Positions 8,306-25,920 of a DNA stretch of 32,536 bases are shown piece by piece. The notes under the pieces were generated by a model, which was given only the letters and a program-made list of their open reading frames with translations, was not told where the DNA came from and did no database searches. Position 1 is the stretch's first letter; each line of letters opens with the position of its first letter. This stretch comes from an uncultured Bacteroidales bacterium (GTDB lineage Bacteria; Bacteroidota; Bacteroidia; Bacteroidales; Paludibacteraceae): positions 1 through 32,536 of the forward strand of contig ONWR01000021.1 of assembly GCA_900321605.1 (NCBI GenBank). The letters are read 5' to 3'. Made by a program: the position numbers and the translations under genes.

Positions 8306-10372
8306 TTACTTCACGATAGTACCCTGAGCGTTGAACTCTACACCATTCTTGATGATGATGAGTTTACCATCACGAACCACCTTCACAGCGGCAGCTTTAG
8401 CGTCGGTGTTCTCGATACCCTCCGGATACTCACCGAGGCGGCAGTTGATTGCACGACCCCAAGTGTTGGTAGCCTGTACCTCGATCACACCATTCTCCAA
8501 AACGGTTACGGTTCCGGCATTGAGCAACCACAGCGAAGTTAATGCTCCGCCTTCATTTAAAATACCAGCAACAGAACCATAGATACTTCCACTATTGACA
8601 TAACCAGCGTAAACGGTACCAGGTTCACCAGAAGCGTCAATATTATAAACACCGGTAGCCAACTCAGTAGCACCAGCCTCTACATTAAACTCAATAGCGA
8701 TCATGAAGTTCTCTGCATCTGTAGCTTCAGCAATCAATACATTATGTTCAGCCAAATACTGATCATCAATGGTGTACTCTGGGAAGTTGCGATTGAAGTC
8801 TTCGTCTTGTGCATCATACTCGTCACCACCCGGCTCGTAGTCCTCAACCGTAGCGGTGAGGTTCAGCGTGAACTCAATTACATCTGCGCTATTCACGTAG
8901 TTCTGTCCTCTTAATGTACCAGTGATGGTAGCGTTAGTACCAGAAACAGCTACGTTGATGTTAGCATCTACCATATCGTAGTACAAAGTATCTCCTCCTA
9001 CGAGTTTCATTACATAGGTGTAGTCAGCAGCCAAATCAGCAGGACCGTACGTATTCGGAATGGTAGCAGAATAAGCTGCGATAGTTAAGAAATTGTTACC
9101 AGCAACGCCTCTGAATTGCCAAGCGGTTCCGTAGTTAGTGATCACACCGCTCATGGTCAAAGTCTCCTGACTTGTAGGTTCCGGAGCCACATAACTCAGG
9201 TTAAGGATGTACTCAACACCGTCCATACTCAGTGCAGAACCGGTGATTACATAACCTCCATTAGAAACAGCAACAGTAACCGACCCCTCATAGAGTTCGA
9301 TCTCGCCGTTTGCATCCTTGATAGTCAGTTCAACCTCCTCTGCATCAAACGTACCTACATAGTCCTCAGCCGACAGATACATACTAACCGAATAATCATC
9401 ATTACTTGCGTTAGCTACGATGATACCAAACCAGCTTGCTAAGCTTTCATCCAGTACAAGGTTTGTACAGGTGATATTCTCCTGGCTTTGCGGAGTCGGG
9501 ATAGCAAAGAACATCGTAACATGATATACATTACCGTCCTTAGCAAGGATCCAACCTTCCAAGTTGAGATTACCATTGTCTTCCGTAACAACGCAGTGTG
9601 CCTCTTTAGCCTCCAAGTCGTTCACGAACGTGTAGGTCAGGTTCATATCAGCCTCAGAATAAATACCTGCGGCAGAACCCTCAGTAGCTACGTTGAACGT
9701 GAAAGCGATATCCATCGAGTCGTTCTTCGTACGCAACTGACACATATTCTGTGCAAAAATAGGCTTATCCATGTGCTCTTGGAAGAAAATATCAATGGTG
9801 TCACCCGTGATAATGAACGGAGCCTCTTCGTATGTCAGCATGTAGATATTTCCCAGTGAGTCAGCAAAAGCTGCATCAATGTGAACCAACTGCTGCTCCT
9901 CATATGCAACCAACGACTTCGTCAGCGATGCCGATGCATACACGGTTTTGTTGCCCAGAGAATCTTTCTTGTACGAATAGTTAGGCAGCATGTCAGCCAG
10001 CGTATACGCATGATTCAATTCCAACTCCTGCGAACCCTCTGCTACTACGATGTCGAAGTAGTAGGTGTTGCCATCTGCGTCATAAAGACGTACATACACA
10101 TCGTTGTCAGAAGCGTAGAATTTCTCAGCATACGACTCGATAGTGATGGTGTAGTCCTGTTGCTTTGCCTTCGGCGCACGCTTCAAAGAGGTAGCCAAAC
10201 GATCTGCTTTCATTAAACTTTTAGCAGGAAAAGCCTTAAATGGGCTGTCTGCCTTCACTGCCTTCATCTCCAAAGCCTCAGCATGCTTGGATTTACCCAA
10301 GATCTGAGCAGGAGCTGCACTTACGCTCAATACAATCGTCAGAGCGCAAAGAATAGAGAAAAATTTCTTCAT
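8306..10372 (-). CDS. Secreted multi-module beta-rich protein of unknown function with shared C-terminal tail
   Basis: This 688-residue protein begins with a clear signal peptide (MKKFFSILCALTIVLSVSAAPAQ). The mature part appears to be about five loosely repeated modules of 90-130 residues (roughly 73-180, 210-300, 305-395, 400-520 and 540-650). They share alternating hydrophobic and polar strands, with motifs such as GIYSEADMNLTY, GTFDAEEVELTI and GVYNIDASGE followed by DG(V/N)xYxxxxxF, which suggests a beta-sandwich or barrel fold. No catalytic motif was recognised. It ends in the short tail found on four other secreted proteins here (KVVRDGKLIII...AQGTIVK), suggesting export across the outer membrane or surface attachment. 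It has its own promoter and terminator, so it is monocistronic. A surface or ligand-binding role is only a guess. Confidence 0.85.
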   Translation of the reverse strand: MKKFFSILCALTIVLSVSAAPAQILGKSKHAEALEMKAVKADSPFKAFPAKSLMKADRLATSLKRAPKAKQQDYTITIESYAEKFYASDNDVYVRLYDADGNTYYFDIVVAEGSQELELNHAYTLADMLPNYSYKKDSLGNKTVYASASLTKSLVAYEEQQLVHIDAAFADSLGNIYMLTYEEAPFIITGDTIDIFFQEHMDKPIFAQNMCQLRTKNDSMDIAFTFNVATEGSAAGIYSEADMNLTYTFVNDLEAKEAHCVVTEDNGNLNLEGWILAKDGNVYHVTMFFAIPTPQSQENITCTNLVLDESLASWFGIIVANASNDDYSVSMYLSAEDYVGTFDAEEVELTIKDANGEIELYEGSVTVAVSNGGYVITGSALSMDGVEYILNLSYVAPEPTSQETLTMSGVITNYGTAWQFRGVAGNNFLTIAAYSATIPNTYGPADLAADYTYVMKLVGGDTLYYDMVDANINVAVSGTNATITGTLRGQNYVNSADVIEFTLNLTATVEDYEPGGDEYDAQDEDFNRNFPEYTIDDQYLAEHNVLIAEATDAENFMIAIEFNVEAGATELATGVYNIDASGEPGTVYAGYVNSGSIYGSVAGILNEGGALTSLWLLNAGTVTVLENGVIEVQATNTWGRAINCRLGEYPEGIENTDAKAAAVKVVRDGKLIIIKNGVEFNAQGTIVK

Positions 10373-10465
10373 AATTCCTTTTGTTTTTAGTTAATAATGT
10401 TTATTTTTGCTTTGAATTTTAGTCGAAATGTTTCTTTTTGATAAGTACACACAACAAAATCGGCA

Positions 10466-10497
10466 CAAAATTACTATTTTTATGGCAAATATGCAAA
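10466..10497 (-). promoter_or_regulatory. Promoter of the 8306-10372 gene
   Basis: On the minus strand TTTG (10494-10497) and TAATTTTG (10466-10473) are separated by 20 bases. The ATG at 10372 lies about 90 bases downstream. This promoter is divergent from the GH53 promoter at 10568-10599; the rest of the 10373-10627 gap holds only AT-rich sequence. Confidence 0.8.
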
Positions 10498-10567
10498 CTT
10501 TTGCTACACAAAAGGCACCAAAAGTTCATTTTGTAAAGTCCACTTTGCAAAAAAGCGACATTTTTTA

Positions 10568-10599
10568 TTTGCATATATCAAAAAAAAGCAGTACCTTTG
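10568..10599 (+). promoter_or_regulatory. Promoter of the GH53 gene
   Basis: TTTG (10568-10571) and TACCTTTG (10592-10599) are separated by exactly 20 bases, with an A-tract ending in GCAG immediately before the -7 box. The ATG at 10628 is 28 bases downstream of the box, leaving a leader of about 20 bases. Confidence 0.9.
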
Positions 10600-10627
10600 C
10601 AGCGCGAAATGAAAAATAACAGTACCA

Positions 10628-11950
10628 ATGAAAAAAATCATCTCCTTATTTATTATTGCGCTCGTGTGCGTGCACGCGCAAGCAGAAACCCGTTATGTCG
10701 GCGGAGACATCTCCGCACTGCCTTTGTATGAACAATACAACTCTCCTTACAAGGATGTCAAGGGCAATAACATCAGCAACCTGCTCACTTGGTTTGTGCA
10801 GGATTGCGGATGGAATACCTTCAGGGTTCGTATATTCGTCAACCCGACAAAAAAAGATCATGGCGGCACCTCTAATCCGACGGTGTGTCAGGATCTGGCT
10901 TTCGTTACCACTTTAGGCCAACGCATCAAAGATGCCGGCGCTTATTTCATGCTGGATTTTCATTATTCCGACACATGGGTCGATGCAACGCATATACAGG
11001 CTCCATCGGCTTGGCAGGGCGCTTCGGATGCCGCGATGGCGGATAGCATCAGCGTCTATACGCATCGCGTGCTGCAAACTCTCAAAGCATCGGGAGCTAC
11101 GCCAGATCTCGTACAAGTAGGAAACGAGATCATGTACGGTTTATGCGGTATTCAGGTGCATCCGTACGACAAGCCGGAAGATAACTGGGACGGCTATTTA
11201 GGGCTGCTCCATGCAGGCTGTAACGCCGTGCGGGAAGAGTGCCCCAATGCGCAGATCATCATCCACACCGACCGTCCTACCAACACCGGTTATAACTCCT
11301 ATTACTATAACAAGCTCAAGAACGCCAACGTGGACTTCGACATCATCGGTTTGAGTTACTATCCTTTCTGGCACGGATATTTGAATGCCGCGCAGGTAGC
11401 TTCCAAGACGGATAAGAACAACCTCGTCAATGCCATCAATAACCTGAGAACGCTTTTCCCGACCAAGCGCGTACACATCGTGGAGTGCGCCTATAATTTT
11501 CAATATTGGCCCACTACCGGCGTATCATTCGACACACAGGGCACTTGGTCTTGCTCTGTAGCGGGACAATACCAGTTTGTGAAGGATCTGGTAGATAATC
11601 TCAAGCCGCTTGAGAACGTAGATGGTATCTCGTATTGGTTCCCGGAAGAAGCAGGAAACGGCGATAAAGGAACAGTTATTCCGTCATGGCAGAACCGCGG
11701 TTTCTGGAACGAGAACAAATCCACAAGCGGACACGCTATCAATAAAACCGGAAACGTCTCCGGCACGAAAACAGCCGAAGACGTTTGTGCGCCGTATTAC
11801 ATGCGCAATTTCTATAATGATCCTTCAGAAGGACTCTCTACGGAACGTTCGTCGGAGGAAGCTCCGTGTCGGAAGATTCTGAAAGAAGGGCGGGTTCTGA
11901 TTCAGCGGCCTGACGGCTCTCAAGTTGCTCTTGACGGTAGCCTGCAATAA
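10628..11950 (+). CDS. Secreted GH53 endo-beta-1,4-galactanase (arabinogalactanase)
   Basis: The 440-residue protein begins with a signal peptide (MKKIISLFIIALVCVHAQA). GH53 hallmarks follow in order: GGDIS near residue 25, WFVQDCGWNTFRVRIFVNP (55-73), DFHYSDTWVD (110-119), the acid/base glutamate E167 in VQVGNEI, and the likely nucleophile E286 in HIVECAYN. The family cleaves beta-1,4-galactan, for example in pectin side chains. After the catalytic domain, roughly the last 35 residues contain the tail CRKILKEGRVLIQ shared with other secreted proteins in this window. It has its own promoter and no SusC/SusD neighbours. Its last 113 bases overlap the convergent ABC permease gene, so the tail-coding DNA is used on both strands. 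Confidence 0.92.
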   Translation: MKKIISLFIIALVCVHAQAETRYVGGDISALPLYEQYNSPYKDVKGNNISNLLTWFVQDCGWNTFRVRIFVNPTKKDHGGTSNPTVCQDLAFVTTLGQRIKDAGAYFMLDFHYSDTWVDATHIQAPSAWQGASDAAMADSISVYTHRVLQTLKASGATPDLVQVGNEIMYGLCGIQVHPYDKPEDNWDGYLGLLHAGCNAVREECPNAQIIIHTDRPTNTGYNSYYYNKLKNANVDFDIIGLSYYPFWHGYLNAAQVASKTDKNNLVNAINNLRTLFPTKRVHIVECAYNFQYWPTTGVSFDTQGTWSCSVAGQYQFVKDLVDNLKPLENVDGISYWFPEEAGNGDKGTVIPSWQNRGFWNENKSTSGHAINKTGNVSGTKTAEDVCAPYYMRNFYNDPSEGLSTERSSEEAPCRKILKEGRVLIQRPDGSQVALDGSLQ

Positions 11951-13121
11951 AGAGCATCGTCACCGCAAGCAGGAAATAGCCTCCTGTCAAAATCCATAAA
12001 GCAATATACTCGGTGCGCGTCGCCCAAAGCGATGCGCCCATTGAGTTGATATGTATGAACCCATGGGCAGCCCATGTATAAGGAACGAGGTAAGACAACC
12101 ATTTCCAACCCAGTGGTACCATCTCTTTCGGCCACGAGATACCGGCACCGAAGAGGAAGATAAGCGAGGTCGAAATGAGCAACACCATACCTGCCTCACG
12201 GTTGCGAACAAAGAAGCCCACACACATGGACATGAAGATGACCGAGAGGATGAAGGGCACGTTAAAACGCAGGATGTCTCCTATCTCGCCAATATGCGGT
12301 ATTTCGAACAAGCGAGGCAGCAGACCCAACAGGATAGCTGCTAAAGCGTAATAAATCATGAAATAAGCTGCCGCACGCGCCAAGGTAATACGGATAGCCG
12401 AATAGCCTCTCTTACGTCCCGGAATACGGAATAACTCTTTTTTCTCCTCACGAAGGGTACCTGCCATCATGCACATACCGAAGAAGAGCGTCTGATGGAG
12501 GATCATGACGAGGACAGCAGGGATGAGGAACGAACCGTAACCGCCGTTGGTAGTGTACAACGCTGTCTCGGTATAAGGAGCCTGCTGCACCAAAGCCCAT
12601 GACATCTCCGGTCCAATGCCCATGTTCTCATAGCGCTCGATCTGCACATTACGCATGGACTCTAACATGACTTGGTTACAACTCAGGTAAATACCTTTCA
12701 TATAGAGGAAGGACGACATATCGCAATAGAGCGAGATCGTTGCCTTACCCAGCGGATCAGCCAATTGGGAAGCATAGTCACGCGGGAAATAGATAATACC
12801 ATGGATCTTCTGATCCCGCAACAACTCCTCCGCTTCTGCCATGGACGCACAGGTATAAGCCAGTTTGATATCGGGAGCCGCACTCCATCGATGCAGGAAA
12901 TCACGGCTCTCTGGCGAATTGCTCATATCGACTACCGCCACAGGGATATTCTGAACCTGCTCATTCCAGTACATCGCTTTGTACAGGATCGGATATGCCA
13001 GCGAACCAAGGAAGAAGATGACCATCACGCCCGGGTCGGTGAAGACGCGACGCAACTCATCGACAGTTATCCAGCAGGCTTCCTTCAGCTGCAACCACCA
13101 TTGATATAATAAACGATACAT
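11838..13121 (-). CDS. ABC-2 type transporter permease (second of pair)
   Basis: This 427-residue membrane protein is of the YhhJ/YbhR type: an N-terminal transmembrane helix (VMVIFFLGSLAYPILY), a large periplasmic domain (about residues 55-210, starting NIPVAVVDMSNSPESRDF), then five or so C-terminal helices. It starts 5 bases after the preceding permease gene and should form a heterodimer with it. No nucleotide-binding domain is fused to it. The last 30 or so residues after the final helix (EQLESRQAAESEPALL...NVP) are hydrophilic and acidic, and they are encoded antisense to the 3' end of the GH53 gene, so this tail may be a product of overprinting. Confidence 0.9.
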   Translation of the reverse strand: MYRLLYQWWLQLKEACWITVDELRRVFTDPGVMVIFFLGSLAYPILYKAMYWNEQVQNIPVAVVDMSNSPESRDFLHRWSAAPDIKLAYTCASMAEAEELLRDQKIHGIIYFPRDYASQLADPLGKATISLYCDMSSFLYMKGIYLSCNQVMLESMRNVQIERYENMGIGPEMSWALVQQAPYTETALYTTNGGYGSFLIPAVLVMILHQTLFFGMCMMAGTLREEKKELFRIPGRKRGYSAIRITLARAAAYFMIYYALAAILLGLLPRLFEIPHIGEIGDILRFNVPFILSVIFMSMCVGFFVRNREAGMVLLISTSLIFLFGAGISWPKEMVPLGWKWLSYLVPYTWAAHGFIHINSMGASLWATRTEYIALWILTGGYFLLAVTMLFIAGYRQEQLESRQAAESEPALLSESSDTELPPTNVP

Positions 13122-13126
13122 ACTAT

Positions 13127-14302
13127 CTATTTAAGCGGATAATTCTGATAAATAAGCGCATGGTGCAGACGCGGTGCCACACAAAGCGCAGGGATAATAA
13201 AGGCAACCAACATCAGTGCCGCCGGGGTACTATTGATAGCCGGAGCGCCCATCAGTGCCTCGTTCACATAGATGACGTAGTAATGGCGCAGCGGTTCGAG
13301 CCAACTCAATGCCTGTACGGGCGGTAACATTCCCATCACCGGATACGTAAATCCGGAGAGCGAGAAGCCCAACATCGAGTACAAGGCACCGACGGAAATA
13401 GCATCACGCAGCGTCGGCAGCAAGCCGATGAGCACGATACCCATCACCTCCATTGCCATGATGAACAGCAGCAAGCCGAAGAGTAAACGCCAATGGCTGC
13501 CCAATACCGGGAAACCGAACATGCTAAACATCACCGCGTAGCAAACAACACCCAATGCCATATAAATCACTGTATAAGGTAGCAGTTTACCGATCATAGC
13601 GATGGTGTAGTTACCTCCGGCCGTACGAAGCCACTCCCGTGTGGTCTTGCTCTTGAGCTCAAATCCTACCGCAAAGACCGTCAGCATCAACGCAATCACG
13701 CCTAATATACCCGGCAGCACGGTGCTCACCAGATAAATGGTATAGTTACCCCAAGGGTTCGCTACCATATGCGCATCGATGCTCACGGGCTGAATACGAT
13801 GCATGATGATATCATCGGTCATACCTTTCTTACGCAATACCTCGCGCTGGAAAGCACCGGAGATGAGGTTCACGATCGTCAACATCTGCTTGTACGCCGT
13901 GTTTCCGCCCACCGTATAGGCATTGGTCACGTAGAAATCCACACGCGGACGTTTGAGGGAAGCCAAATTGCTATAGAAACCGTGCGGAACAACAAGGATA
14001 CCATAGATCTTACCCTGCTGCATCGCATCGCGTGCCTCTGCGTAGTTATTGGTAACGAGCTGGATATTCACCGAGGGCGTAGCCTGCATCTCATGCGCAA
14101 GGCGACGGGAGATAGAGGACTGATCCATATCCACCAACGCCACAGGCATCTCTTCCGCAGCGCCGGCCTTCATCAGCGTCATAAAGAAGAACAGGGAGAA
14201 CAGGAATGCTCCCACCGACGCCGTGAGGTACAAGGGACGAGAGACGATGCGCTGTAACTCACGCAGCGTGACCTGCCAAATATAATGGAAAATCTCTTTC
14301 AA
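13127..14302 (-). CDS. ABC-2 type transporter permease (first of pair)
   Basis: The 391-residue protein has the same architecture as its neighbour: an N-terminal helix (SVGAFLFSLFFFMTLM), a periplasmic domain starting EMPVALVDMDQSSISRRLA, and a C-terminal membrane domain with several helices. It probably forms the inner membrane pore of a tripartite exporter with the adaptor and TolC homologue encoded upstream. The start is TTG at 14302; the in-frame codons upstream reach a stop (14312-14314) without an ATG, and the next methionine is inside the first helix. The TTG lies within a heptamer unit (TTTCAAC on the plus strand, 14297-14303) next to the 14310-14365 array. Confidence 0.9.
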   Translation of the reverse strand: MKEIFHYIWQVTLRELQRIVSRPLYLTASVGAFLFSLFFFMTLMKAGAAEEMPVALVDMDQSSISRRLAHEMQATPSVNIQLVTNNYAEARDAMQQGKIYGILVVPHGFYSNLASLKRPRVDFYVTNAYTVGGNTAYKQMLTIVNLISGAFQREVLRKKGMTDDIIMHRIQPVSIDAHMVANPWGNYTIYLVSTVLPGILGVIALMLTVFAVGFELKSKTTREWLRTAGGNYTIAMIGKLLPYTVIYMALGVVCYAVMFSMFGFPVLGSHWRLLFGLLLFIMAMEVMGIVLIGLLPTLRDAISVGALYSMLGFSLSGFTYPVMGMLPPVQALSWLEPLRHYYVIYVNEALMGAPAINSTPAALMLVAFIIPALCVAPRLHHALIYQNYPLK

Positions 14303-14309
14303 CTTACAA

Positions 14310-14365
14310 ATTCAACTTTCAACTTTCAACTATCAACTTTCAACTCTCAACTATCAACTATCAAC
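14310..14365. repeat. Heptamer array of eight units (TWTCAAC) between the adaptor and permease genes
   Basis: Eight consecutive 7-base units (ATTCAAC, TTTCAAC twice, TATCAAC, TTTCAAC, TCTCAAC, TATCAAC twice) fill the spacer up to the stop codon of the adaptor gene. A further unit at 14297-14303 contains the TTG start of the downstream permease gene. Confidence 0.9.
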
Positions 14366-14367
14366 TA

Positions 14368-15363
14368 TTACTTCTTCTCCATCACCAGAGCTGTCATACC
14401 CGGACGCAATCCGTCGATGGGGGTAACAGGTCGGCATTTGACATCGAAGGTACGTACATCATAGCCACCGTTCTGTTTGGTGGTACGCCATGTAGCATAG
14501 GTACCCATCGCTTTGATATAGGTAACCACTACCGGGTAGGTCTTGTCCTCGCCCAGAGCCGGAATACGGACATCTATCTGGCTACCCTTACGGAAGCCTT
14601 CCAACATGTCTTCGCGCACGGAGAAGGTAAACCATACATCCGTCAGGTCAAGGATCGCCATGACAGGACTACCCTGTCCTACCAACTCACCTACTTTGGG
14701 GAAACACTCACTCACCTCACCATCGCAAGGCGACAGGAGATAGCGCTCTGCCTCAGCAGCTGCCAATTCCTTGAGCATTCCATCTACTCGCGCTACCTGA
14801 GCTCGTGCAGCCTCTTTGTCCTCAGCGCGAGCACCGGAAAGCGCCATGTCGTACTGACTCTTAGCAGCTTTGACGGTAGCCGAAGCAGCTTTGTACTGCG
14901 CCTCTACCTCATCGCGTTTCTGCTCACTGACCACACCTTTCTCGAACAGACGCTGTACACGCTCGTAGCTCTTACGATAGATCTCCTCACCTGCCAACGC
15001 TTTCTGGTACAACTCATAAGCGCCCTCGATCTGCTCGGGCTGTGCTCCGTTCTTGGCTTTGTCATTCACAGCCTCAGCCATACGACGGGCTGCCAAAGCT
15101 TGATCTTTCTTTGCCTCTACCTCCGGCGAATAGATGATCACTAAGGTGTCACCTTTGCGTACTTGTTCGCCCTCCTCGACGAGATACATCTCCACACGGC
15201 CGGGCACTTTACCGGACACACGGTACTCGGCAGCTTCCGCTTCGCCCTGCACCAGAATTTTCTCGGGTTCGAGCGCCAAGATACCTACCAGCGCTACAAT
15301 GATGATCACTGCCAACAGCGCTACAACGCCTAAGAGCAGACTTCCTTCTTTTTCCTTTTTCAT
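14368..15363 (-). CDS. HlyD-family periplasmic adaptor (membrane fusion protein)
   Basis: The 331-residue protein has one N-terminal transmembrane helix (about residues 9-31). A lipoyl-like half-motif follows (VSGKVPGRVEMYLVEEGEQV, about 49-68), then a long alpha-helical hairpin rich in Ala, Glu, Lys and Gln (about 80-205), then the second lipoyl half (LLSPCDGEVSECFPKVGELV) and a beta-barrel domain. Such adaptors bridge an inner membrane transporter to a TolC-type channel. It lies between the tolC and permease genes, as expected for a tripartite efflux or export operon. The substrate cannot be read from the sequence. Confidence 0.93.
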   Translation of the reverse strand: MKKEKEGSLLLGVVALLAVIIIVALVGILALEPEKILVQGEAEAAEYRVSGKVPGRVEMYLVEEGEQVRKGDTLVIIYSPEVEAKKDQALAARRMAEAVNDKAKNGAQPEQIEGAYELYQKALAGEEIYRKSYERVQRLFEKGVVSEQKRDEVEAQYKAASATVKAAKSQYDMALSGARAEDKEAARAQVARVDGMLKELAAAEAERYLLSPCDGEVSECFPKVGELVGQGSPVMAILDLTDVWFTFSVREDMLEGFRKGSQIDVRIPALGEDKTYPVVVTYIKAMGTYATWRTTKQNGGYDVRTFDVKCRPVTPIDGLRPGMTALVMEKK

Positions 15364-15373
15364 ATTGCTATAC

Positions 15374-15408
15374 TTTCAACTATCAACTTTAAACTTTCAA
15401 CTTTCAAC
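15374..15408. repeat. Heptamer array (TTTCAAC family, five units) between the tolC and adaptor genes
   Basis: Units TTTCAAC, TATCAAC, TTTAAAC, TTTCAAC and TTTCAAC run in exact 7-base register and end just before the stop codon of the tolC gene (15411-15413). The unit family is the same as at 14310-14365. Confidence 0.88.
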
Positions 15409-15410
15409 TA

Positions 15411-16901: not shown

Positions 16902-16942
16902 TATTCACTAATTGTTTTTCTACCCTATTACAAAATCAGCCA

Positions 16943-16974
16943 CAAAATTACTGCTTTTTTTTTATTTATGCAAA
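16943..16974 (-). promoter_or_regulatory. Promoter of the tolC-adaptor-permease operon
   Basis: On the minus strand TTTG (16971-16974) and TAATTTTG (16943-16950) are separated by 20 bases containing an A-tract ending in GCAG. The ATG at 16901 is about 40 bases downstream. Confidence 0.87.
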
Positions 16975-17053
16975 TAATTGCGACATTTTTTAGCAAATAT
17001 TCGCATATTTTAAGGTGTTCTGACTATTTCTTGTTCGACAAAAGTGCTCACTT

Positions 17054-17069
17054 CGGGTCATTTCACCCG
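17054..17069 (-). terminator. Possible weak terminator hairpin at the end of the endonuclease pair
   Basis: CGGGT (17054-17058) and ACCCG (17065-17069) can form a 5-bp stem around a 6-base loop that spans the stop codon of the downstream endonuclease gene. Only a short T-run follows on the minus strand, so function as a terminator is uncertain. Confidence 0.35.
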
Positions 17070-18755
17070 TTGACCGGTGATGGTGAAGATGCTCTCTCCT
17101 ACTTGGATGAACAACCGTCCCGAACGGAGATACTTACGCGCAGGAACGTCCATGGTGGTCGTTTCAATGCCCGTCGAACCGCAGGAGGTGAGGTAGTCCG
17201 AATAGGAGATGCCGGATCCGGTAGCGTTGATGACGACGCGGGTGAAGCCGATACCTTGACCTGTGTTGTAGTTCGTGGAGAAGGTCAGCGGCGCACGTCC
17301 GGAAAGCGGCTGCGTATTCGTCCATGTATAGTCGCTAAGGGTCTTACCGTTAGTAGCTACGATCGTGGCTATCTGCGTATCTCCGGCTTTGACATCGAGG
17401 TTGCAATACTGCGTACCGCCATACGTGCGGATATTCACTTCGATGGACGAGAGACCGGCAAGTTCTATCTCCGGCGAGGTCAGTTCTTTGCCTTTATCGA
17501 GCAACCAGTAAGAGCCGCTCATCGAAGCAGTGTTGATCCATCCCTCCGTATGATCCGCGTCGTAGGTATAAACCATAGGAGTGATGACACCTCCTTGTTC
17601 GCCATGAGCGAAGACAGCATAGAGGGTCATATCCGCTGAGACAGCAGGTACGTCAGAAGGCGTCTTATAGAGAACGGGCGCTTGATCGGTAGTGCCCTCG
17701 ATAGGCGCTGTGGTCCAACCCATGAAAGTGTCGCTGGTCTCAGAGCATGAGACAGGCTCCTGAGGGAAAGCGGTAAGGGCACGACCGGCGATGACCGAAT
17801 CCGTATAGAGCACCACACCGCAAACCGACCACGTCACACCGTATTTGGTGACGTGAGAGGGATCGTACCCTCCTCCCTCGCAAGTAGGCGTCATCGATGA
17901 CAGATCGACCGTCTGACCGACCTTATTGCCCCAGATATACTCAACGAGTTCAGGATAGTCAATGAACGGATTGCGATTATGCTGAATGCCGTACACCGCT
18001 TGGTTTCGGTCTATCTCTTTCTGCGAGACGGGATCCTGACGATGCCAATCCAGGAGGAAAGAGAGGCTATATGCGGTGAGGTTCGTAGGCGAAGAAGAGA
18101 ACATCTTCGACCCGTTGCCGGCATTGAGGCTATTGGAGCGGTATCGCGCTACCATATAAAAGAACGTGCGCGCGAAGTCACCTTTGTAGTTATCGTCCGG
18201 CTCATAGACGGTACCTACTCCACTGGTGATGGAGGTACCGAGTTTGCCTAAACCGTGGTGGTCGGGGTCTTTGGAGAAACCACTGAAAGAGCTGACGACG
18301 CCGTACGGATAATTAGAGCGCAGGTTATTGATACGCGCATCGGTGGGATAGACGTTGAAGAGATCAGAGACCATCGGTCCGGAGCCGAGCCAAGACTGAC
18401 AAACGACGTGTTCTTTGTTCCAACCGTCACAAACAGCTTTCTGCGGGGTATTGGCATCTGCCATCGTAAAATGACAGGTTGAATACATGTCCCACAAGGA
18501 GTCGGCGTAGAAATCCGTCTGCTCGTAATAGGGTTCCAAACCGTCATAGGAGATCACTGTATGGTTATCAATGATGTCGCATAGGGCATTGAGGATATTA
18601 TCGGCGGACTTCTTGGTATCCACACCGTCGTAATAATGCTCCGGAACAGCCGCTACTCCAATCACCACGTTAGCCCATGTGCTTAGTGAAAAAGCACATA
18701 AGGCAAACGCGATTATTGCAAATTTGATATTTGACATTTGATATTTGAAATTCAT
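17058..18755 (-). CDS. Secreted endonuclease I family nuclease, second copy, with C-terminal tail
   Basis: The 565-residue protein has a signal peptide (hydrophobic core FAIIAFALCAFSLSTWA). The endonuclease I domain follows, with the catalytic-region motif WNKEHVVCQSW (H116) and the later signatures DWHRQDPVSQKEIDRN and NRNPFIDYPELVEYIWG. After it come a short repeat-like segment (FMGWTTAPIEG), a beta-rich domain of about 130 residues, and the C-terminal tail ARKYLRSGRLFIQ...GQRVK shared with other secreted proteins here. It is a diverged duplicate of the upstream gene and overlaps it by ATGA. Residues 3-11 are encoded by a heptamer array, so the original start may have been Met7 (18737). Likely role: extracellular or surface DNA degradation for nutrients. 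Confidence 0.9.
   Translation of the reverse strand: MNFKYQMSNIKFAIIAFALCAFSLSTWANVVIGVAAVPEHYYDGVDTKKSADNILNALCDIIDNHTVISYDGLEPYYEQTDFYADSLWDMYSTCHFTMADANTPQKAVCDGWNKEHVVCQSWLGSGPMVSDLFNVYPTDARINNLRSNYPYGVVSSFSGFSKDPDHHGLGKLGTSITSGVGTVYEPDDNYKGDFARTFFYMVARYRSNSLNAGNGSKMFSSSPTNLTAYSLSFLLDWHRQDPVSQKEIDRNQAVYGIQHNRNPFIDYPELVEYIWGNKVGQTVDLSSMTPTCEGGGYDPSHVTKYGVTWSVCGVVLYTDSVIAGRALTAFPQEPVSCSETSDTFMGWTTAPIEGTTDQAPVLYKTPSDVPAVSADMTLYAVFAHGEQGGVITPMVYTYDADHTEGWINTASMSGSYWLLDKGKELTSPEIELAGLSSIEVNIRTYGGTQYCNLDVKAGDTQIATIVATNGKTLSDYTWTNTQPLSGRAPLTFSTNYNTGQGIGFTRVVINATGSGISYSDYLTSCGSTGIETTTMDVPARKYLRSGRLFIQVGESIFTITGQRVK
18722..18749. repeat. Heptamer array (ATTTGAY)4 in the signal-peptide coding region
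   Basis: Units ATTTGAT, ATTTGAC, ATTTGAT and ATTTGAA run in 7-base register and are translated as part of FKYQMSNIKF at the N-terminus of the second endonuclease. Confidence 0.85.
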
Positions 18756-20530
18756 TTCACACGCTGACCTTGAAGATTGAATAACTGTTCGTTATGCAGG
18801 ATATATATTTGACCGCCAACGAGGATCTTACGCGCAGCAGCCTCATCACAAGGAACGAGTTCCACTTCGGCGCCGGATTGGCAAGAGGTGATATAACGGC
18901 TGTAGGACGATCCGGAGCCGGTAGCATTGATGACCACAGACTGGATACCGATACCCTTATTAGCCGCACCATTGGAGCAAGCGAAAGTAAGCGTAGAGGT
19001 TCCGGCGATATAGAGATTGTTATTCCAGATATATTCGGTGATGGTAGAACCGCCGGTAGCCTGGATAGAAGTGAGTACACCTGATTCCTCCGAGATCTGC
19101 AGCATATCGTACTGCGTACCGCCAAAAGTACGCATCTTCACTACGATAGACTCGAGCCCCATGAGATCGATAGCCGGGGAGACAAGGGTCTTACCTTGGT
19201 CTAAGAGCCAGTACGAACCCTTATTAGCACCCGTATTGGCCCAACCTTCCTGATGATCGGCATCATAGGTATAGGTAGCCGGAGCCGCACCTTGCGTCAC
19301 GGTTTCTTTAGCGAAGACAGCGTAGTATGTTACGTCTGCAGTAACGGCGGGGAAGTCCGCAGGCTGCACATACAACGGCGATGGAGCATCGTCCAGCGTA
19401 CCATCGATAGGAGCCGTGGTCCAACCCATGAAAGTATTACTCTCGTTAGAACACGATGTCGGCGTTTGCGGCAGCACCTGGATAGGCACTTGTTCGGCGA
19501 TCGAATCAACATAAAGTTCTTCGCCGTTGACCGACCAGGTAACGCCATACATAGCGCCGGGGATAGGCGGCACGAACGTACGCGCACCATCGCTAACGCC
19601 GGGGATGAAGTCCGGATCGGTAGAAGGCATCAAGAGATCCATATCCACGGTCTCACCGGCATGTTCTCCCCAGATATACTCCGCCAGATAGGGATAATCG
19701 ATAAAGGGGTTGCGGTTTCCCTGCGTCTGCTGGATACCGTTATTACGGTCGATCTCTTTCTGCGACACCGGATCTTCGCGATGCCACTTCATGAGCAGCA
19801 CCACAGCTTTCTTGGTCAGACCGAAATAGCCGGAAGAAGTATATTCACCAGAAAAGAAATTATTGCCTGTCGTCAGATTCGACTGCTGCCACTTAACGAT
19901 CGTACCCATGATACCACGGGCCCAATCCCCCTTATATTGAGGTTTGGGTTCGAACACATTCCCCGAACCGTTGACCGACTCACCGGCAGCCGAAGCGATG
20001 GTTTTTTTGTCTGTGGACCAAGAACCGGCAGCGCCGTATTTATTGCCTCGCCAATTGGTACCGCCGTTCACCTCTCCGTACTCGTAGTTCGAACGCACAC
20101 CATTGATCTTACCGTCCGTAGGCAGCACATGGAAAATATCGTTTCCGATACCACTTGTTCCTCCACCCCACCAAGACTGCGGGATCGAGTGCTCACGGTT
20201 ATAACAATCGCAAACACCATTATAGTTACCGCAGGTATTGGAAGTAGCAAACACGCACTCACCGTACATGTCCCAAATCTTACCGGCTTTGCCAACCGAG
20301 TCCGCAGGATACACATCGGTCTTGAGATACGCCGAATACAAACCGTTGTAACCGATCGATTTGTAGTTCTTGCTGGTAGCAGCACTCACTGCTGACCAGA
20401 GGGTCGCACCCGACTTACCATCTACACTGGCCCAATACGCCGGAATATCTGCCGGTTTGGTCACCGTAGCAGCCAGCATCATCAGCGACGACATACATAG
20501 CGCCGCAAGAAAAAGAATATGTTTTTTCAT
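18752..20530 (-). CDS. Secreted endonuclease I family nuclease, first copy, with C-terminal tail
   Basis: This 592-residue protein has a signal peptide (MKKHILFLAALCMSSLMMLA). The endonuclease I domain carries the motif CDCYNREHSIPQSWWGGG (H114 as the likely catalytic histidine), then KWHREDPVSQKEIDRN and NRNPFIDYPYLAEYIWG. The rest matches the neighbouring copy: an FMGWTTAPIDG segment, a beta-rich domain beginning TYTYDADHQEGWANTG, and the tail ARKILVGGQIYIL...GQRVK. The family makes non-specific cuts in DNA or RNA. Its promoter is at 20584-20615, and its stop overlaps the start of the second copy (ATGA at 18752-18755), so the two are probably translated together. Confidence 0.92.
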   Translation of the reverse strand: MKKHILFLAALCMSSLMMLAATVTKPADIPAYWASVDGKSGATLWSAVSAATSKNYKSIGYNGLYSAYLKTDVYPADSVGKAGKIWDMYGECVFATSNTCGNYNGVCDCYNREHSIPQSWWGGGTSGIGNDIFHVLPTDGKINGVRSNYEYGEVNGGTNWRGNKYGAAGSWSTDKKTIASAAGESVNGSGNVFEPKPQYKGDWARGIMGTIVKWQQSNLTTGNNFFSGEYTSSGYFGLTKKAVVLLMKWHREDPVSQKEIDRNNGIQQTQGNRNPFIDYPYLAEYIWGEHAGETVDMDLLMPSTDPDFIPGVSDGARTFVPPIPGAMYGVTWSVNGEELYVDSIAEQVPIQVLPQTPTSCSNESNTFMGWTTAPIDGTLDDAPSPLYVQPADFPAVTADVTYYAVFAKETVTQGAAPATYTYDADHQEGWANTGANKGSYWLLDQGKTLVSPAIDLMGLESIVVKMRTFGGTQYDMLQISEESGVLTSIQATGGSTITEYIWNNNLYIAGTSTLTFACSNGAANKGIGIQSVVINATGSGSSYSRYITSCQSGAEVELVPCDEAAARKILVGGQIYILHNEQLFNLQGQRVK

Positions 20531-20583
20531 ACTATTAAATTTATTAAATGTCGTATTTCAACCGTTCCTTTTGAAACAATGTG

Positions 20584-20615
20584 CAAAAGTACTGCTTTTT
20601 TGCGACATACACAAA
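20584..20615 (-). promoter_or_regulatory. Promoter of the tandem endonuclease genes
   Basis: On the minus strand TTTG (20612-20615) and TACTTTTG (20584-20591) are separated by 20 bases with an AAAAAAGCAG run next to the -7 box. It lies just after the lpdA stop codon. I see no terminator between the two units, so read-through from lpdA is possible. Confidence 0.88.
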
Positions 20616-20629
20616 TATTTGAATATGTT

Positions 20630-22024
20630 TTACAGCAACTCGTGCAAAATCTCACTGACGGTGGGGTGCGGGAAGACCACTTGCCGGAAATCCGAAAGGG
20701 TGTATCCGTTGCGAACGGCACACGAAGCCGCAGCGATGAACTCCGAGCAGGGATTACCGATACAATGCACGCCTACAATCGTTTGCGTACGGCTGTCAAC
20801 GATCATCTTGCAAAGACCTGTCTCGCCTTCGTTCTCCGCCATGAAACGACCACTAAACGTCATCGGCAGTTTACGTACTTCTACAGGGATCTCCATGGAT
20901 TCGGCTTGGGTTTCCGTCAAACCGACAGACGCGATCTCGGGGTTGGTATAAACGACAGACGGAACCGCGTTATAATTTACCATCTGGGCATTTACCATTT
21001 GGTCATTTTCCATTTGGGCATTTACCATTTGGTCATGGAGCATATGTTCCACTGCTACTTCGGCTTGACGGGAAGCCACATGAGCAAGCATGATCTTGCC
21101 GGTGACATCACCGCAGGCATAGACCTTCGGCAGGTTCGTTTGGCAGAACTCATCAATGACAATCGCCCCGCGGTTCAACTCCAAGCCCTCCAATGCCTCT
21201 AATCCTTGCAGGTTAGCACGGCGCCCAACGCTCACCAGTATCCGCTCTGCGGAAACCTCTCCCTTGCTCTCCTCCGAAGAGAGGGAGGAATAATGCACCG
21301 TGTTGCCATCTATGGACTCCACCTTGGTCTGAGTGAGAATAGGAATACCGGCTTTCTTATATTTATCCAGCAGCACTTGAACGACCTCTTGATCAAGGTT
21401 CGGCAGGATCGTCGGCATCGCTTCGATGACCGTTACCGGCACACCGAGTTCGTGATAGAGGGTCGCAAACTCCATGCCGATTACTCCACCGCCTACGATG
21501 ACCATCGACTTCGGCAGTTCGGTAGCTGCCAAAGCGTCTGTCGAATCCCACACAGCAGGGTTGTCTTTTATGCCCGAGATCGGTGGCACGAAGTTCGTCG
21601 AGCCCGTACAGATCATCAGGTGCTCTGCCTCGTAGATCTCCCCGTTACACTCGATCCGCCAAACTTGGCGGATATTATCAAGTACTTTCGCTCCACCGCT
21701 CACCACCGTGCAGTGTTCGTTATTGAGGCGTTGTTTGATACCGGCTACGAGTTTGCGAACGACGATGGTCTTGCGTTTCTGCATGGCTGCAAAATCGAAC
21801 ACCACGTTTTCAGCCGTTACACCATATTTCTGTGCGTGCGTAGCGTTATAGTACTGTTTAGCGCCGTATAAGAGCGATTTGGTTGGAATACAACCTACGT
21901 TCAGGCAGGTTCCGCCCAACGCATTTTGCTCAAAGAGCACGACATCTTTTCCGGCTTTCGAAGCGATCTCCGCCGCAGTATACCCCGCAGGTCCGCCACC
22001 TACAATAGCTAAAAAGTAATTCAT
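20630..22024 (-). CDS. lpdA: Dihydrolipoyl dehydrogenase-like flavoprotein disulfide reductase
   Basis: The 464-residue protein has the FAD-binding GGGPAGY (9-15), the redox-active disulfide GGTCLNVGCIPTK (C40, C45), an NAD-binding GGGVIGMEFA segment, a second FAD motif ACGDVTGK and the C-terminal catalytic HPTVSE (H453). The ATG at 22024, 4 bases after the cysE stop, fits the family start MNYFLAIVGGG; an upstream extension in the same frame overlaps cysE and is unlikely. No lipoyl-dependent dehydrogenase subunits are nearby, so its partner is unknown. A block of about 20 residues (QMVNAQMENDQMVNAQ), encoded by a 15-bp repeat, is inserted between AVEHMLHD and the conserved YNAVPSVVYTNPEIASVG strand. 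Confidence 0.9.
   Translation of the reverse strand: MNYFLAIVGGGPAGYTAAEIASKAGKDVVLFEQNALGGTCLNVGCIPTKSLLYGAKQYYNATHAQKYGVTAENVVFDFAAMQKRKTIVVRKLVAGIKQRLNNEHCTVVSGGAKVLDNIRQVWRIECNGEIYEAEHLMICTGSTNFVPPISGIKDNPAVWDSTDALAATELPKSMVIVGGGVIGMEFATLYHELGVPVTVIEAMPTILPNLDQEVVQVLLDKYKKAGIPILTQTKVESIDGNTVHYSSLSSEESKGEVSAERILVSVGRRANLQGLEALEGLELNRGAIVIDEFCQTNLPKVYACGDVTGKIMLAHVASRQAEVAVEHMLHDQMVNAQMENDQMVNAQMVNYNAVPSVVYTNPEIASVGLTETQAESMEIPVEVRKLPMTFSGRFMAENEGETGLCKMIVDSRTQTIVGVHCIGNPCSEFIAAASCAVRNGYTLSDFRQVVFPHPTVSEILHELL
20975..21034. repeat. 15-bp tandem repeat (four units) inside lpdA
   Basis: Four consecutive 15-base units (ATTTACCATCTGGGC, ATTTACCATTTGGTC, ATTTTCCATTTGGGC, ATTTACCATTTGGTC) occupy an in-frame block of lpdA. 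Each unit contains two heptamer-like halves, and 15 bases keep the frame (five residues per unit). Confidence 0.92.
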
Positions 22025-22028
22025 GTAT

Positions 22029-22715
22029 TTATGCTTTGTTTTTAATTCGTATTTCGGGGGTCGATTGCAAAACGATACTATTAGCCGGAACATCTTGGGT
22101 CAACCAAATGTTACCGCCAACGACGGTGTCATGACCGATGGTGACACGACCGAGGATGGAGGTGTTGGAATAGACGGTGACGTGATCCTCCAAGATCGGG
22201 TGACGAGGAACGTCCATAGGACGACCTTCGGCATCGTACTCGAAGTTCTTCGCGCCGAGCGTCACACCTTGGTACAACACCACATGCGAACCGATGATAG
22301 CGGTCTCGCCGATGACCACACCCGTACCATGATCGATGCAGAAATGGTCGCCTATCTGTGCCGCAGGGTGAATATCGATACCCGTACGGCTATGCGCGAG
22401 TTCGGTTAACATACGCGGGATACGCGGCACGCCGAGTTGGTAAAGCACATGGGCAGCACGGTAATGGATCATCGCGTATTGCAGCGGATAAGAGAGGATC
22501 ACTTCGCCCCGATCGGTGACTGCAGGGTCATTATGGAGGACAGCATCCACATCGGTGTTGATGAGCCGTTTAATCTCGGGTATCTGCTCCCAGAACGCCT
22601 CCGGCAAGCACAGGTCTTTCGGTCTCTCCACTGCCGGATAATACTCCGGAAATACCTCGCCCTGCAGATGCAGCACAAGTTGTTTCAAATGCGCTATATT
22701 AATAAGTCCGTTCAA
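22029..22715 (-). CDS. cysE: Serine O-acetyltransferase
   Basis: The 228-residue protein acetylates serine to O-acetylserine, the first step of cysteine synthesis. The left-handed beta-helix hexapeptide region is clear (TGIDIHPAAQIG, DHGTGVVIGETAIIG, VVLYQGVTLG, HPILEDHVTVYSNTSILG), and DHGTGVVIGE contains the usual catalytic histidine. The N-terminal helical part is short compared with the roughly 300-residue Bacteroides enzymes I recall. The only start consistent with full length is TTG at 22715, next to an AT heptamer array and with a stop in frame four codons upstream, so truncation by the array is possible. It lies directly after cysK and 4 bases before lpdA. Confidence 0.92.
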   Translation of the reverse strand: MNGLINIAHLKQLVLHLQGEVFPEYYPAVERPKDLCLPEAFWEQIPEIKRLINTDVDAVLHNDPAVTDRGEVILSYPLQYAMIHYRAAHVLYQLGVPRIPRMLTELAHSRTGIDIHPAAQIGDHFCIDHGTGVVIGETAIIGSHVVLYQGVTLGAKNFEYDAEGRPMDVPRHPILEDHVTVYSNTSILGRVTIGHDTVVGGNIWLTQDVPANSIVLQSTPEIRIKNKA

Positions 22716-22753
22716 TTTTAATTCTTAATTTTTAATTTTTAATTTTTAATTTA
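22716..22753. repeat. AT heptamer array (TTTTTAA, five units) between cysK and cysE
   Basis: Units TTTTAA, TTCTTAA and three TTTTTAA in exact register fill the spacer. The end of the array includes the cysK stop codon (22751-22753), and its other end touches the cysE TTG start. Confidence 0.88.
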
Positions 22754-23638
22754 CAATACGGACAGGTATCGTTCACCTGTATCGGGTAAGAGGACGACGA
22801 TGTTTTTGCCCTGATAGTCGGGTTGTTGGCTCAGTTGCAAAGCAGCCGAATACGCAGCGCCGGAAGAGATACCGACGAGCAGTCCGTGGTCTTTGGCAAG
22901 CGAACGAGCGGCTGCAAAAGCGTCCTCGTTGGTAACGGTCATCACGCGGTCGATATACCCTGCCTGATAAGTCTCCGGCACGAAGTTCGCGCCTATACCT
23001 TGTATCTTATGCGGTCCGGCTTTTCCTTCGGAGAGCATAGGAGAGGAAGCAGGTTCAACGGCGATGCTCTCGACGAGCATGTTCTTCTCTTTGAGTGCGC
23101 GCCCTACTCCGCTGACCGTTCCACCTGTGCCGACTCCGGCGATGAACACATCGACCTGTCCGGCGGTGTCGTTCCAGATCTCCTGTCCGGTGGTAGCATA
23201 ATGGATAGCAGGGTTAGCAGGGTTGGTGAACTGTCCTAAGATCACCGCATTGGGGGTGTTGTCCCGCAGCTCTTCCGCCTTGGCAATCGCACCTTTCATG
23301 CCTTCTGCGCCCGGAGTGAGCACCAGTTCAGCACCATAGGCAGCCAAGAGGTTTCTGCGCTCCACGGACATCGTCTCGGGCATCGTCAGGATCACCTGAT
23401 AACCTTTGAGCCGACCGATCCACGCCAAACCGACTCCGGTGTTGCCGGAGGTAGGTTCGATGATTGTAGCGCCCGGTACTAAGACTCCTTTGCGTTCCGC
23501 ATCTTCGATCATCGCTAACGCGGTACGGTCCTTGACTGAACCACCCGGGTTAAAACGCTCTAACTTGAGCATCAGACCGGGTTGTATTTCAAGCATCGGC
23601 GTCTTGCCGATGAGTTCCAATAAGTTCTTAACTATCAT
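22751..23638 (-). CDS. cysK: Cysteine synthase (O-acetylserine sulfhydrylase)
   Basis: The 295-residue PLP enzyme joins O-acetylserine and sulfide to give cysteine. The PLP lysine is K36 in NPGGSVKDR. The substrate loop EPTSGNTG, the phosphate-binding GVGTGGT and the C-terminal SSGAA motif are all present. Length and start (ATG at 23638, MIVKNLLELIGKTPM) fit the family. Together with cysE downstream it makes the complete two-step cysteine branch. The spacer to the upstream C_GCAxxG_C_C gene is a heptamer array. Confidence 0.96.
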   Translation of the reverse strand: MIVKNLLELIGKTPMLEIQPGLMLKLERFNPGGSVKDRTALAMIEDAERKGVLVPGATIIEPTSGNTGVGLAWIGRLKGYQVILTMPETMSVERRNLLAAYGAELVLTPGAEGMKGAIAKAEELRDNTPNAVILGQFTNPANPAIHYATTGQEIWNDTAGQVDVFIAGVGTGGTVSGVGRALKEKNMLVESIAVEPASSPMLSEGKAGPHKIQGIGANFVPETYQAGYIDRVMTVTNEDAFAAARSLAKDHGLLVGISSGAAYSAALQLSQQPDYQGKNIVVLLPDTGERYLSVL

Positions 23639-23640
23639 AA

Positions 23641-23671
23641 TCGTTTAGTCGTTGGTCGTTAGTCGTTGGTC
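23641..23671. repeat. Heptamer array (GTCGTTR) before cysK
   Basis: TCGTTTA, then GTCGTTG, GTCGTTA, GTCGTTG and a partial GTC fill the spacer between the cysK start and the stop codon of the upstream gene (23672-23674). The unit is the same as at 5259-5293, about 18 kb away. Confidence 0.88.
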
Positions 23672-24136
23672 TTACAGCGCAGCGGTCTTCAAAAACACTC
23701 TCACAGCCTCAGCTACCATTTCGGAGCAAGGTCTTTTTTCGTAATACTGTTGTGTCCGCTCTTCGGGTTTGGGGTCTTGCGGTTTCGGTGCAAGACCTAA
23801 GAGTTCTGCGCAGATGAGCGAACCGTATTGGGCTTTGAACTCTCCGGCAAGCTGCTGCACAAACGCATAGTTCGCCATTTTACCTTCGTTGTCATGGGGT
23901 GTAGAGGAGCCGTTCTGCAGTCCTGCAAGCATGAACATGCCGGAGGCAGCACCGCAAACCATACGCATACGTCCCATACCGCCACCGAACGAGGCAGAGA
24001 GGCGGAGCGCCAATGACTCATCGGTGACACCATATATATCCGCGCACGAGGCAAACACCGCCTGCGAGCAGTTATACCCTTGTTTGAACAAATCCGTTGC
24101 TCGTTGAGCACGAGCTTCTATTTCTTCGTTTGTCAT
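23672..24136 (-). CDS. C_GCAxxG_C_C family protein
   Basis: This 154-residue protein has the conserved cysteines of the family: C23 in YNCSQAV, C61 in MVCGAASG, C109 in SLICAELLG and C137 in RPCSEMV, plus an additional C31. Family members are found in many anaerobes. A redox or metal-binding role is usually suspected, but none is established to my knowledge. The start is ATG at 24136, 5 bases after the cotH stop; a longer in-frame extension runs into cotH and is not credible. Its place just before cysK suggests a link to sulfur or thiol metabolism (inference). Confidence 0.9.
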   Translation of the reverse strand: MTNEEIEARAQRATDLFKQGYNCSQAVFASCADIYGVTDESLALRLSASFGGGMGRMRMVCGAASGMFMLAGLQNGSSTPHDNEGKMANYAFVQQLAGEFKAQYGSLICAELLGLAPKPQDPKPEERTQQYYEKRPCSEMVAEAVRVFLKTAAL

Positions 24137-24141
24137 AGTCG

Positions 24142-25920
24142 TTATTCTATTTTGCGTCCGAATAGGTCGTATACCTGCCCGTTGCGGAGGAGGAGCACTT
24201 GTCCGTGACGGATGATCTTGGTCGGTTGCGATGAAGGATCTTGGGTGTTCTCCGTGCCCCACGTAGCCGGACGGGTGCCTTCGCCCCATTGACGGTAGAG
24301 CCAGTTGATACGTCCGTTGAACTTATCGAGGAACGCATCGCGTTTGGCGTTCATGTTGCTGTTCTCGCAGTAGTTCTGTGTGCCGTTCCAGAGCTGCGCA
24401 TCGCGTTGGGCTGCTAAGGCTACCAGAGAGGCAAAAGTACTGATCTCGGAACGGACGTCGCTCTGCTGATCGTGGTAGAAGATCCACCAGTACTCTTTCA
24501 GTTTGGCTTGGAAAGCAGGCCATGTAGCGAGCTGTCCGATCCAGTACTGAGGGAAGGTCGGGTTGTCGTAGATCCACGTCTCCGAGCCTCGGTTATACGC
24601 ATTGCCGAAATCCCATACGGGTCCGAAGAACCACTTCTCGGCTATGCCGTTCCGGTCGCGGTCTTTGTAGAGGTAACAACTGCCGTGATAACTCTCACAG
24701 TCCTCCATGATCTCCTGCACGAGGTAGTATTTGACGGCTTCGTCAAGGTCAATCCGGTTCCAGACATCCGTCTCGTTAGAGCCCCAGATAGCGGTATTGA
24801 GTCCGTTGAGTTGGTTCTCGACATAGGTACGCTGCTCGCCGGAGAGGATCTCGGGACTCTTCATCGTGATCCACACCTGTTGACCGTTTCCTTCGTAGAG
24901 GGTGACGTTGCCCTCCTCGTAGTAGTTATCGATCTCCACGAGCCAACCTCCACTGACGGAGTCGATGGCGTTATCCTCCTGCTCGGTGACATCCACACGG
25001 TTGGAACCAACGCGAATCTGTTCGGTCAGAAAATAGATACCTTGGTACTGACCGTTCATCACCAGTTCCACCGGCACCAAACCCGGTGTCCATCTCAGAC
25101 CGATTGCTTCGCTGAGTTTGAAACCGATATAGTTCTTCAGATAACCGAGGTTATCGTCCGCTCCGGCTAAGAGACACCAGTGTTTGTTCTTGGGCATACC
25201 GAGCACTTTCTGTTTGGCGTCGAACTTGATGCGGTAGGGTTTCTTGTCAAAGCCGTTCCACGTCCAGTTGCCTCGTCCTTTGAACTGTCCGGTCACCGGT
25301 ATTTCGCTGCTGCCCAAGGCGTCGTAGCCCGTGTTGAGCGGATCGATATACAGCGAGCCGGTGATATACTCCTCTTTGCTGGTAATGGCTACGCCGTTGG
25401 TCGTATTGAGATAGACGATCGGCAGGTTGCCGCTGGGGGTAACCGAACCGGTCTGTCCGCTCTGCGTACTCTCCCAGACGGCAAGGTTCATCCATGTGCC
25501 TTGCGCCCAGTTATCGCCGTTCACAGGCACGAAGATCTCTCCTGCACTCATCTGTGCATCGGAGGTAGCGGTGCGGGTGATGTTGAGCGTATTACTGATA
25601 TAATCCTTGAAATCGCTGAACCGCTGGTCGTACGTACCGGCTTGGATATCTCCGCCCACGAACGTAAAGCGATAGATGTCATTGACGGTCTGAGCGATGG
25701 AGACCGCCCATTTCTGCCCGTCAAAACTCATATCCAACACATGAGTCTCGGAGACATCGTCTCTGCCATACACCATCTTGACCGTAGAATAGCCGGTCTT
25801 AGAGTTGTCAAAATAGAGCGATCCCTGCGGAATCGTCATCGCCTGCATGCCTGCACTAAATAGGAAAAACAGCAGAATACCTGTGTACCTTTCCATTTTC
25901 ATTTTCATTTTCATTTTCAT
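24142..25920 (-). CDS. Secreted CotH-like (spore coat protein H family) kinase-fold protein with C-terminal tail
   Basis: The 592-residue protein has an unusual N-terminus of (Met-Lys) repeats before a signal peptide core (GILLFFLFSAGMQA). After about 170 residues of beta-rich sequence the CotH domain begins: FKGRGNWTW, KKPYRIKFD, LGMPKNKHWCLLAGADD, later SYHGSCYLYKD and the DFG-like GPVWDFGNA. Some family members are atypical protein kinases; activity here is untested. The C-terminus carries the shared tail KIIRHGQVLLL...FGRKIE. The first ATG overlaps the sulP stop (ATGA at 25917-25920), implying translational coupling. A surface protein inside a sulfate/cysteine unit is unexpected. Confidence 0.88.
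   Translation of the reverse strand: MKMKMKMKMERYTGILLFFLFSAGMQAMTIPQGSLYFDNSKTGYSTVKMVYGRDDVSETHVLDMSFDGQKWAVSIAQTVNDIYRFTFVGGDIQAGTYDQRFSDFKDYISNTLNITRTATSDAQMSAGEIFVPVNGDNWAQGTWMNLAVWESTQSGQTGSVTPSGNLPIVYLNTTNGVAITSKEEYITGSLYIDPLNTGYDALGSSEIPVTGQFKGRGNWTWNGFDKKPYRIKFDAKQKVLGMPKNKHWCLLAGADDNLGYLKNYIGFKLSEAIGLRWTPGLVPVELVMNGQYQGIYFLTEQIRVGSNRVDVTEQEDNAIDSVSGGWLVEIDNYYEEGNVTLYEGNGQQVWITMKSPEILSGEQRTYVENQLNGLNTAIWGSNETDVWNRIDLDEAVKYYLVQEIMEDCESYHGSCYLYKDRDRNGIAEKWFFGPVWDFGNAYNRGSETWIYDNPTFPQYWIGQLATWPAFQAKLKEYWWIFYHDQQSDVRSEISTFASLVALAAQRDAQLWNGTQNYCENSNMNAKRDAFLDKFNGRINWLYRQWGEGTRPATWGTENTQDPSSQPTKIIRHGQVLLLRNGQVYDLFGRKIE

Follow-up and report, generated by a model that had tools for sequence, protein, structure and literature searches.

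The subject of this analysis is a short C-terminal tail shared by five predicted secreted proteins in the window, a stretch of 32,536 nucleotides (contig ONWR01000021.1, assembly GCA_900321605.1) from an uncultured Bacteroidales bacterium of the Paludibacteraceae. The tail is probably a sorting signal of the type IX secretion system (T9SS) that matches the N-terminal half of the type A C-terminal domain (CTD); in one genus it has probably taken the place of the full CTD on much cargo. It is 27 residues long, or about 38 (37-40) when counted from a cleavage-like site upstream, and would consist of two or three short strands with motif B (the β3-β4 loop, Y[ND]xxGxxV) as the end of the chain. The preliminary description of the window had proposed a signal for sorting or anchoring, perhaps a T9SS-type domain in reduced form. 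This proposal is supported by the signal-peptide bias of the tailed proteins, the strict C-terminal position, the presence of T9SS components, an exchange with the full CTD on endonuclease I (EndoI), an abundance per megabase (Mb) inverse to that of type A domains, the cleavage-like motif and a match to motif B.

All five tails were confirmed at the C-termini named in that description. They belong to an unknown secreted protein (tail 8309..8389, minus strand; gene 8306-10372), a GH53 protein (11867..11947, plus strand; gene 10628-11950), EndoI copy 2 (17061..17141, minus strand; gene 17058-18755), EndoI copy 1 (18755..18835, minus strand; gene 18752-20530) and a CotH protein (24145..24225, minus strand; gene 24142-25920). 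The GH53 tail is atypical, and its end, GSLQ, deviates from the pattern said to unite the five. The passengers had been called five unrelated proteins, which is true of four, since the two endonucleases are homologous paralogues with 46% identity. The genes of this tandem pair overlap by 4 bases (18752-18755). The 3′ end of the GH53 gene, including its tail, overlaps the 3′ end of a minus-strand ABC-2 transporter gene by 113 bases (11838-11950), and the GH53 tail may be constrained by this overlap.

The profile search of the whole source genome that had been suggested as a check established the tail as real and commoner than five copies. In the source assembly (2,315,634 bases in 64 contigs, 94.9% complete), a first profile made from the alignment of the five window tails gave 92 matches at E≤10, of which 83 remained at E≤0.1. 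The context of 90 of the 92 was examined, the other two being situated at contig edges. A stop codon lay within 7 residues of the match end in 83/83 cases at E≤0.1 and in 88/90 at E≤1, and 48 of the 83 ended exactly at the stop. An independent profile, built from 50 tails of the source genome with the window rows excluded and run on 355 frames, recovered four of the window tails (E 7e-12 to 9.5e-9) up to at most one residue from the stop, and fitted only the first half of the GH53 tail (positions 1-14, E 0.007). TIGR04183, the family model of type A domains, matched this genome 8 times at E≤0.001, and 4 of these matches exceeded its cut-off.

The anatomy of the tail was described from 84 copies (E≤0.2, ending within 7 residues of the stop, none dropped), found by a rule that itself required K, then G/D/N/E five residues on and I/L/V/M nine residues on. 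Across these 84, columns 1-6 read K, V/I (53 tails), L/I (69), R/I/K, D/N (69) and G (75), followed in columns 7-12 by Q/K (59), L/V/I (80), Y/L/F, I (72), L/I and R/K. Columns 13-18 contain G/N/D, G/E/D, K, any residue, Y/F (81) and N/D/T (71), and columns 19-24 contain A/V/L/I, any residue, G (81), Q/A, any residue and V/I/L (74). The last profile position is K or R in 50 of the 75 tails long enough to reach it. Upstream of the K, a motif of the form [GAD][IVLM][EDT][NDESATQ] (for example PTGIEDV or AQGIENV) was present in 53/84 tails versus 127/1420 control windows from the same proteins, and in 47 of the 53 it starts 12-15 residues before the K. This TGIEN-like sequence resembles a PorU cleavage site. 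Within the window it occurs as PEGIENT in the linker of the unknown secreted protein (8390..8434, minus strand) and as STGIETT in that of EndoI copy 2 (17142..17186, minus strand). It was not found in the linker of EndoI copy 1 (18836..18898, minus strand), where the AlphaFold2 (AF2) model of P0005 (32 rows) gives residues 553-564 a predicted local distance difference test score (pLDDT) below 50.

Most of the tailed proteins start with a sequence like a signal peptide. By a crude rule, a signal-peptide-like start was present in 68/80 full-length tailed open reading frames (ORFs) versus 56/180 tail-less ORFs flanking EndoI loci, and in 28/29 other tailed ORFs near those loci; a laxer rule gave 75/83 tailed proteins. 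A spread of tails over cytoplasmic proteins, named beforehand as the outcome that would speak against a sorting signal, was not seen among the matches examined. Passengers assigned by Pfam and NCBIfam include thermolysin, M6 peptidase, alpha-amylase, pullulanase X25, pectate lyase, GH53, CotH, EndoI, exo/endonuclease, BspA-type leucine-rich repeat, cleaved adhesin/choice-of-anchor J and DUF4832 proteins. No Pfam match at E≤1e-5 was found for 8 of the 20 tailed proteins scanned; about 50 tailed proteins of the source genome lie outside these domain scans.

In EndoI the tail and the full CTD are exchanged. In tail-rich genomes this nuclease ends in the tail, but its counterparts in other genera and in two congeners with few tails end in a full type A domain. 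PorV (NF033710) was above its cut-off in 17/17 genomes tested, and in the source genome, where it lies at C34:5305-6414, it directly follows PorU (NF033707, 1041.9 bits), which itself retains a type A domain (32.4 bits). SprA (TIGR04189) was found in 45 of 47 genomes tested, including 12/12 congeners. The tail might instead direct proteins to another outer-membrane machine that merely exists beside the T9SS, such as a PorV2/PorU2-type branch, as a sorting or surface-anchoring signal. In its favour, NCBIfam contains PorU2 and PorV2 families, which have sub-threshold matches in the local PorU (137.7 bits, cut-off 450) and PorV (25.4 bits, cut-off 325). The exchange of tail and type A CTD at the same position of the same enzyme argues for a single machine, and this alternative is distinctly unlikely. 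Six group-specific positions separate the PorVs of 11 tail-rich genomes from 6 others; kinship may explain them, and they are not taken as evidence of PorV co-adaptation.

The tail is best read as spread within one gut genus of the Paludibacteraceae and sporadic elsewhere in the family. Among 71 genomes of the genus (the source included, many incomplete), it was present in 71/71 at 3-112 copies with a median of 60, while TIGR04183 domains numbered 4-46 with a median of 12 (both at E≤0.01). Tails outnumbered these domains in 66/71, the exceptions being (tails/domains) G296 11/46, G306 9/44, G360 23/26, G387 35/35 and G395 3/10. G306 and G296 (loci L173 and L174), tail-poor and CTD-rich, offer a useful ancestral-like comparison. 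The two features were inversely related per Mb (Spearman -0.41, p 3.5e-4, n=71; -0.52, p 0.002, for the 32 genomes at least 90% complete). In a family sample, 46/150 genomes had a match at E≤0.01, with 9 to at least 56 copies in the 13 genomes of the source genus (source included) and 0 to 12 in other genera. At the level of the order, 4/198 genomes matched at E≤0.001, namely the source and three with a single copy, and in a phylum-wide sample 1/395 matched at E≤1e-4, the source genome only. In all seven loci examined from other genera or families (L122-L124, L136, L140-L142), no more than 8 residues separated the match from the stop. The relatives suggest an animal-gut origin for the source bacterium.

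It is highly improbable that the tails are decayed, functionless CTDs on proteins which now remain in the periplasm. The GH53 tail does appear eroded, and we know of no functional CTD as short as the tail. Against decay, the K, G, I and G positions show no variation or at least 90% conservation across 32 EndoI proteins that have the tail, and similar tails recur on unrelated passengers at the copy numbers given above in every congener.

The half-CTD reading, which equates the tail with the N-terminal half of a CTD up to motif B, is based on profile comparison, one congener sequence and predicted structure. In hhalign, 54 tails compared with 30 CTDs of the two tail-poor congeners aligned tail positions 17-26 with motif B (score 18.6, P 3.3e-4); the reversed tail profile scored 7.3. 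The tail profile matched 29/30 CTDs, all weakly (best single E 0.017), and the best match lay at motif B in 26 of the 29. One congener CTD, L287, reads IMCDGQLTI...IYDALGRLV followed by motif D, close to tails such as KVIRNGQVYI...YNALGAEM. The AF2 model of EndoI copy 1 contains three short strands in the tail (567-571, 574-579 and 582-584; block pLDDT 59-78), and in that of the CTD-bearing relative L257 the CTD has three strands ahead of the motif B loop (277-279, 288-292 and 299-303) and another four behind it. The latter model (3 rows) is poor overall, with a mean pLDDT of 41, and its CTD part alone was used (block pLDDT 67-82). With 27 residues and three short strands, the tail does not match the seven-stranded β-sandwich of the type A CTD.

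The tail could alternatively be a T9SS signal that is a rearranged or convergent mini-signal, mimicking motifs E, D and B in a new order (K-V-L, G-Q-L-Y-I, Y-N-x-x-G-x-x-V-K) and so keeping the functions of D and E. Its start, a K followed by two hydrophobic residues, resembles motif E, as does the V/I-K at which many tails stop, and GQ[LI]YI is similar to motif D. Weak second matches of the tail profile also occur in the D/E region of some CTDs. This origin is nevertheless unlikely, given that the best matches concentrate at motif B, in agreement with hhalign, and that L287 looks like a collinear intermediate.

Several observations weigh against the tail as a T9SS half-CTD. The hhalign match spans 10 columns, and its score was reached by 2 of 500 profiles with permuted columns (permutation mean 8.3). 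A collinear match to the first strand was present in only 5/29 CTDs. The cleavage-like expression was chosen after the tails had been inspected, and a like motif occurs in only 11/30 type A CTDs of the two congeners. The correlation is weak on raw counts (-0.21, p 0.07; -0.37, p 0.04, at ≥90% completeness), and the genomes are not independent, kinship being ignored in all of these correlations. SprA was not found, among the 47 genomes, in the source assembly or in G227; its absence from the 94.9% complete source assembly is probably an assembly gap. Motifs D and E are absent from the tail, with too few residues after motif B to hold them (at most 7 to the stop, 83/83). Published work on Porphyromonas gingivalis, by contrast, treats motifs D and E as required; the C-terminal motif is reported to be needed, and 22 residues at the end of HBP35, comprising motifs D and E, to suffice for export of green fluorescent protein. 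It is further stated in PMC10994853 that the conserved type A motifs set the fold and do not contact the translocon, except for a Lys near the C-terminus, which weakens a direct role for motif B.

In the mechanism proposed for the half-CTD, the signal peptide seen in the sequence would take the precursor across the inner membrane, the SprA-PorV translocon would bind the tail, and PorU would cut the linker at the TGIEN-like site to release or anchor the cargo. The C-terminus just after motif B, often V/I-K, might substitute for the C-terminal motif. Much cargo of the genus would by now bear the tail in place of the full CTD, while the PorU of the source genome keeps the full domain. Sources consulted on T9SS CTDs include PMC11285876, PMC10994853, PMC10202324 and PMC5831590. 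Published work places CTDs against PorV loops and SprA, and shows by deletion and by G699R that the β3-β4 loop is needed in RgpB, G699P having little effect. A bolder proposal, on which the balance is roughly even, is that a minimal signal of about 38 residues ending at motif B works without D and E, that most of the T9SS-type cargo in one gut genus has come to carry it, that the essential core of a T9SS signal therefore differs from the picture given by P. gingivalis mutants, and that PorV and SprA of this genus have adapted to it. If the half-CTD reading is true, much T9SS cargo of these gut bacteria, often carbohydrases, proteases and nucleases, escapes TIGR04183-based prediction (a median of 60 tails versus 12 matches per genome). 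The tail would also be a natural experiment on which part of a T9SS signal is needed: mutants point to D, E and the C-terminus, and here the chain seemingly ends at motif B.

A full type A domain is also present in the window. The first gene (302-5182) is an open frame entering from the contig edge; it has many repeats that contain GCDS, and the domain lies at its end (4994..5173, plus strand). TIGR04183 matches it at 26.4 bits, above cut-off, in one scan and at 21.4 bits (cut-off 23) in another. No Pfam match at E≤0.001 was found for this gene. Elsewhere in the source genome, the convergent genes L050 and L105 (C58:49498-49646) both end in a tail, and the tail matches meet at base 49569. L035 (C29:9018-9092), a frame of 39 codons, passes from an apparent short start straight into a tail and may be what a deletion left of a cargo gene. 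Three giant frames of 3223-3555 codons (L091, L096 and L097) end in closely similar tails, [IL]EN[ND]HVVIIRxxExYDVTGKxL, which score weakly with the first profile (E 0.1-1).

Among known T9SS signals, the tail shares with the type A CTD (TIGR04183, PF18962) its C-terminal position, cargo with a signal peptide, similar kinds of passenger, PorV, PorU and SprA in the genomes, motif B, interchangeability on EndoI and a similar upstream motif, present in 11/30 of the CTDs. It differs in length (27 versus about 70-85 residues) and in the lack of motifs D and E. In 14/14 tailed proteins scanned with NCBIfam (4 in one scan, 10 in another), neither TIGR04183 nor TIGR04131 gave a match at E≤1, GH53 being outside these scans and the HMMER filters discarding most matches above 0.1; membership of the tail in either family was rejected. 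A ChiA-type match at E≤1 was also absent in 14/14, from a library expected to contain such a model. Type B (TIGR04131) and type C (ChiA-type) CTDs are likewise C-terminal T9SS signals; unlike the tail, they are about 100 residues or more according to PMC10202324.

Literature searches, which reached few subscription papers, recognised no description of such a tail. The short CTDs of Prevotella intermedia, as set out in PMC11969387, are a reduced T9SS signal alongside long ones, with a predicted three-stranded sheet. T9SS cargo of that species is preferentially cut at PT/GI with Ile conserved at +2, to which the upstream motif of 53/84 tails is similar. Counted from the cleavage site, those short CTDs are 43-55 residues long and contain motif B, then D, then E, whereas the tail has about 37-40 residues and its chain stops at motif B. 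Assignment to that class was rejected on the B-D-E order, a comparison made with the published definition rather than with P. intermedia sequences. Five peptides resembling short CTDs were aligned but entered no search. As a half-CTD T9SS signal, the tail is nearest, among the systems found, to these P. intermedia short CTDs, from which it differs in motif content.

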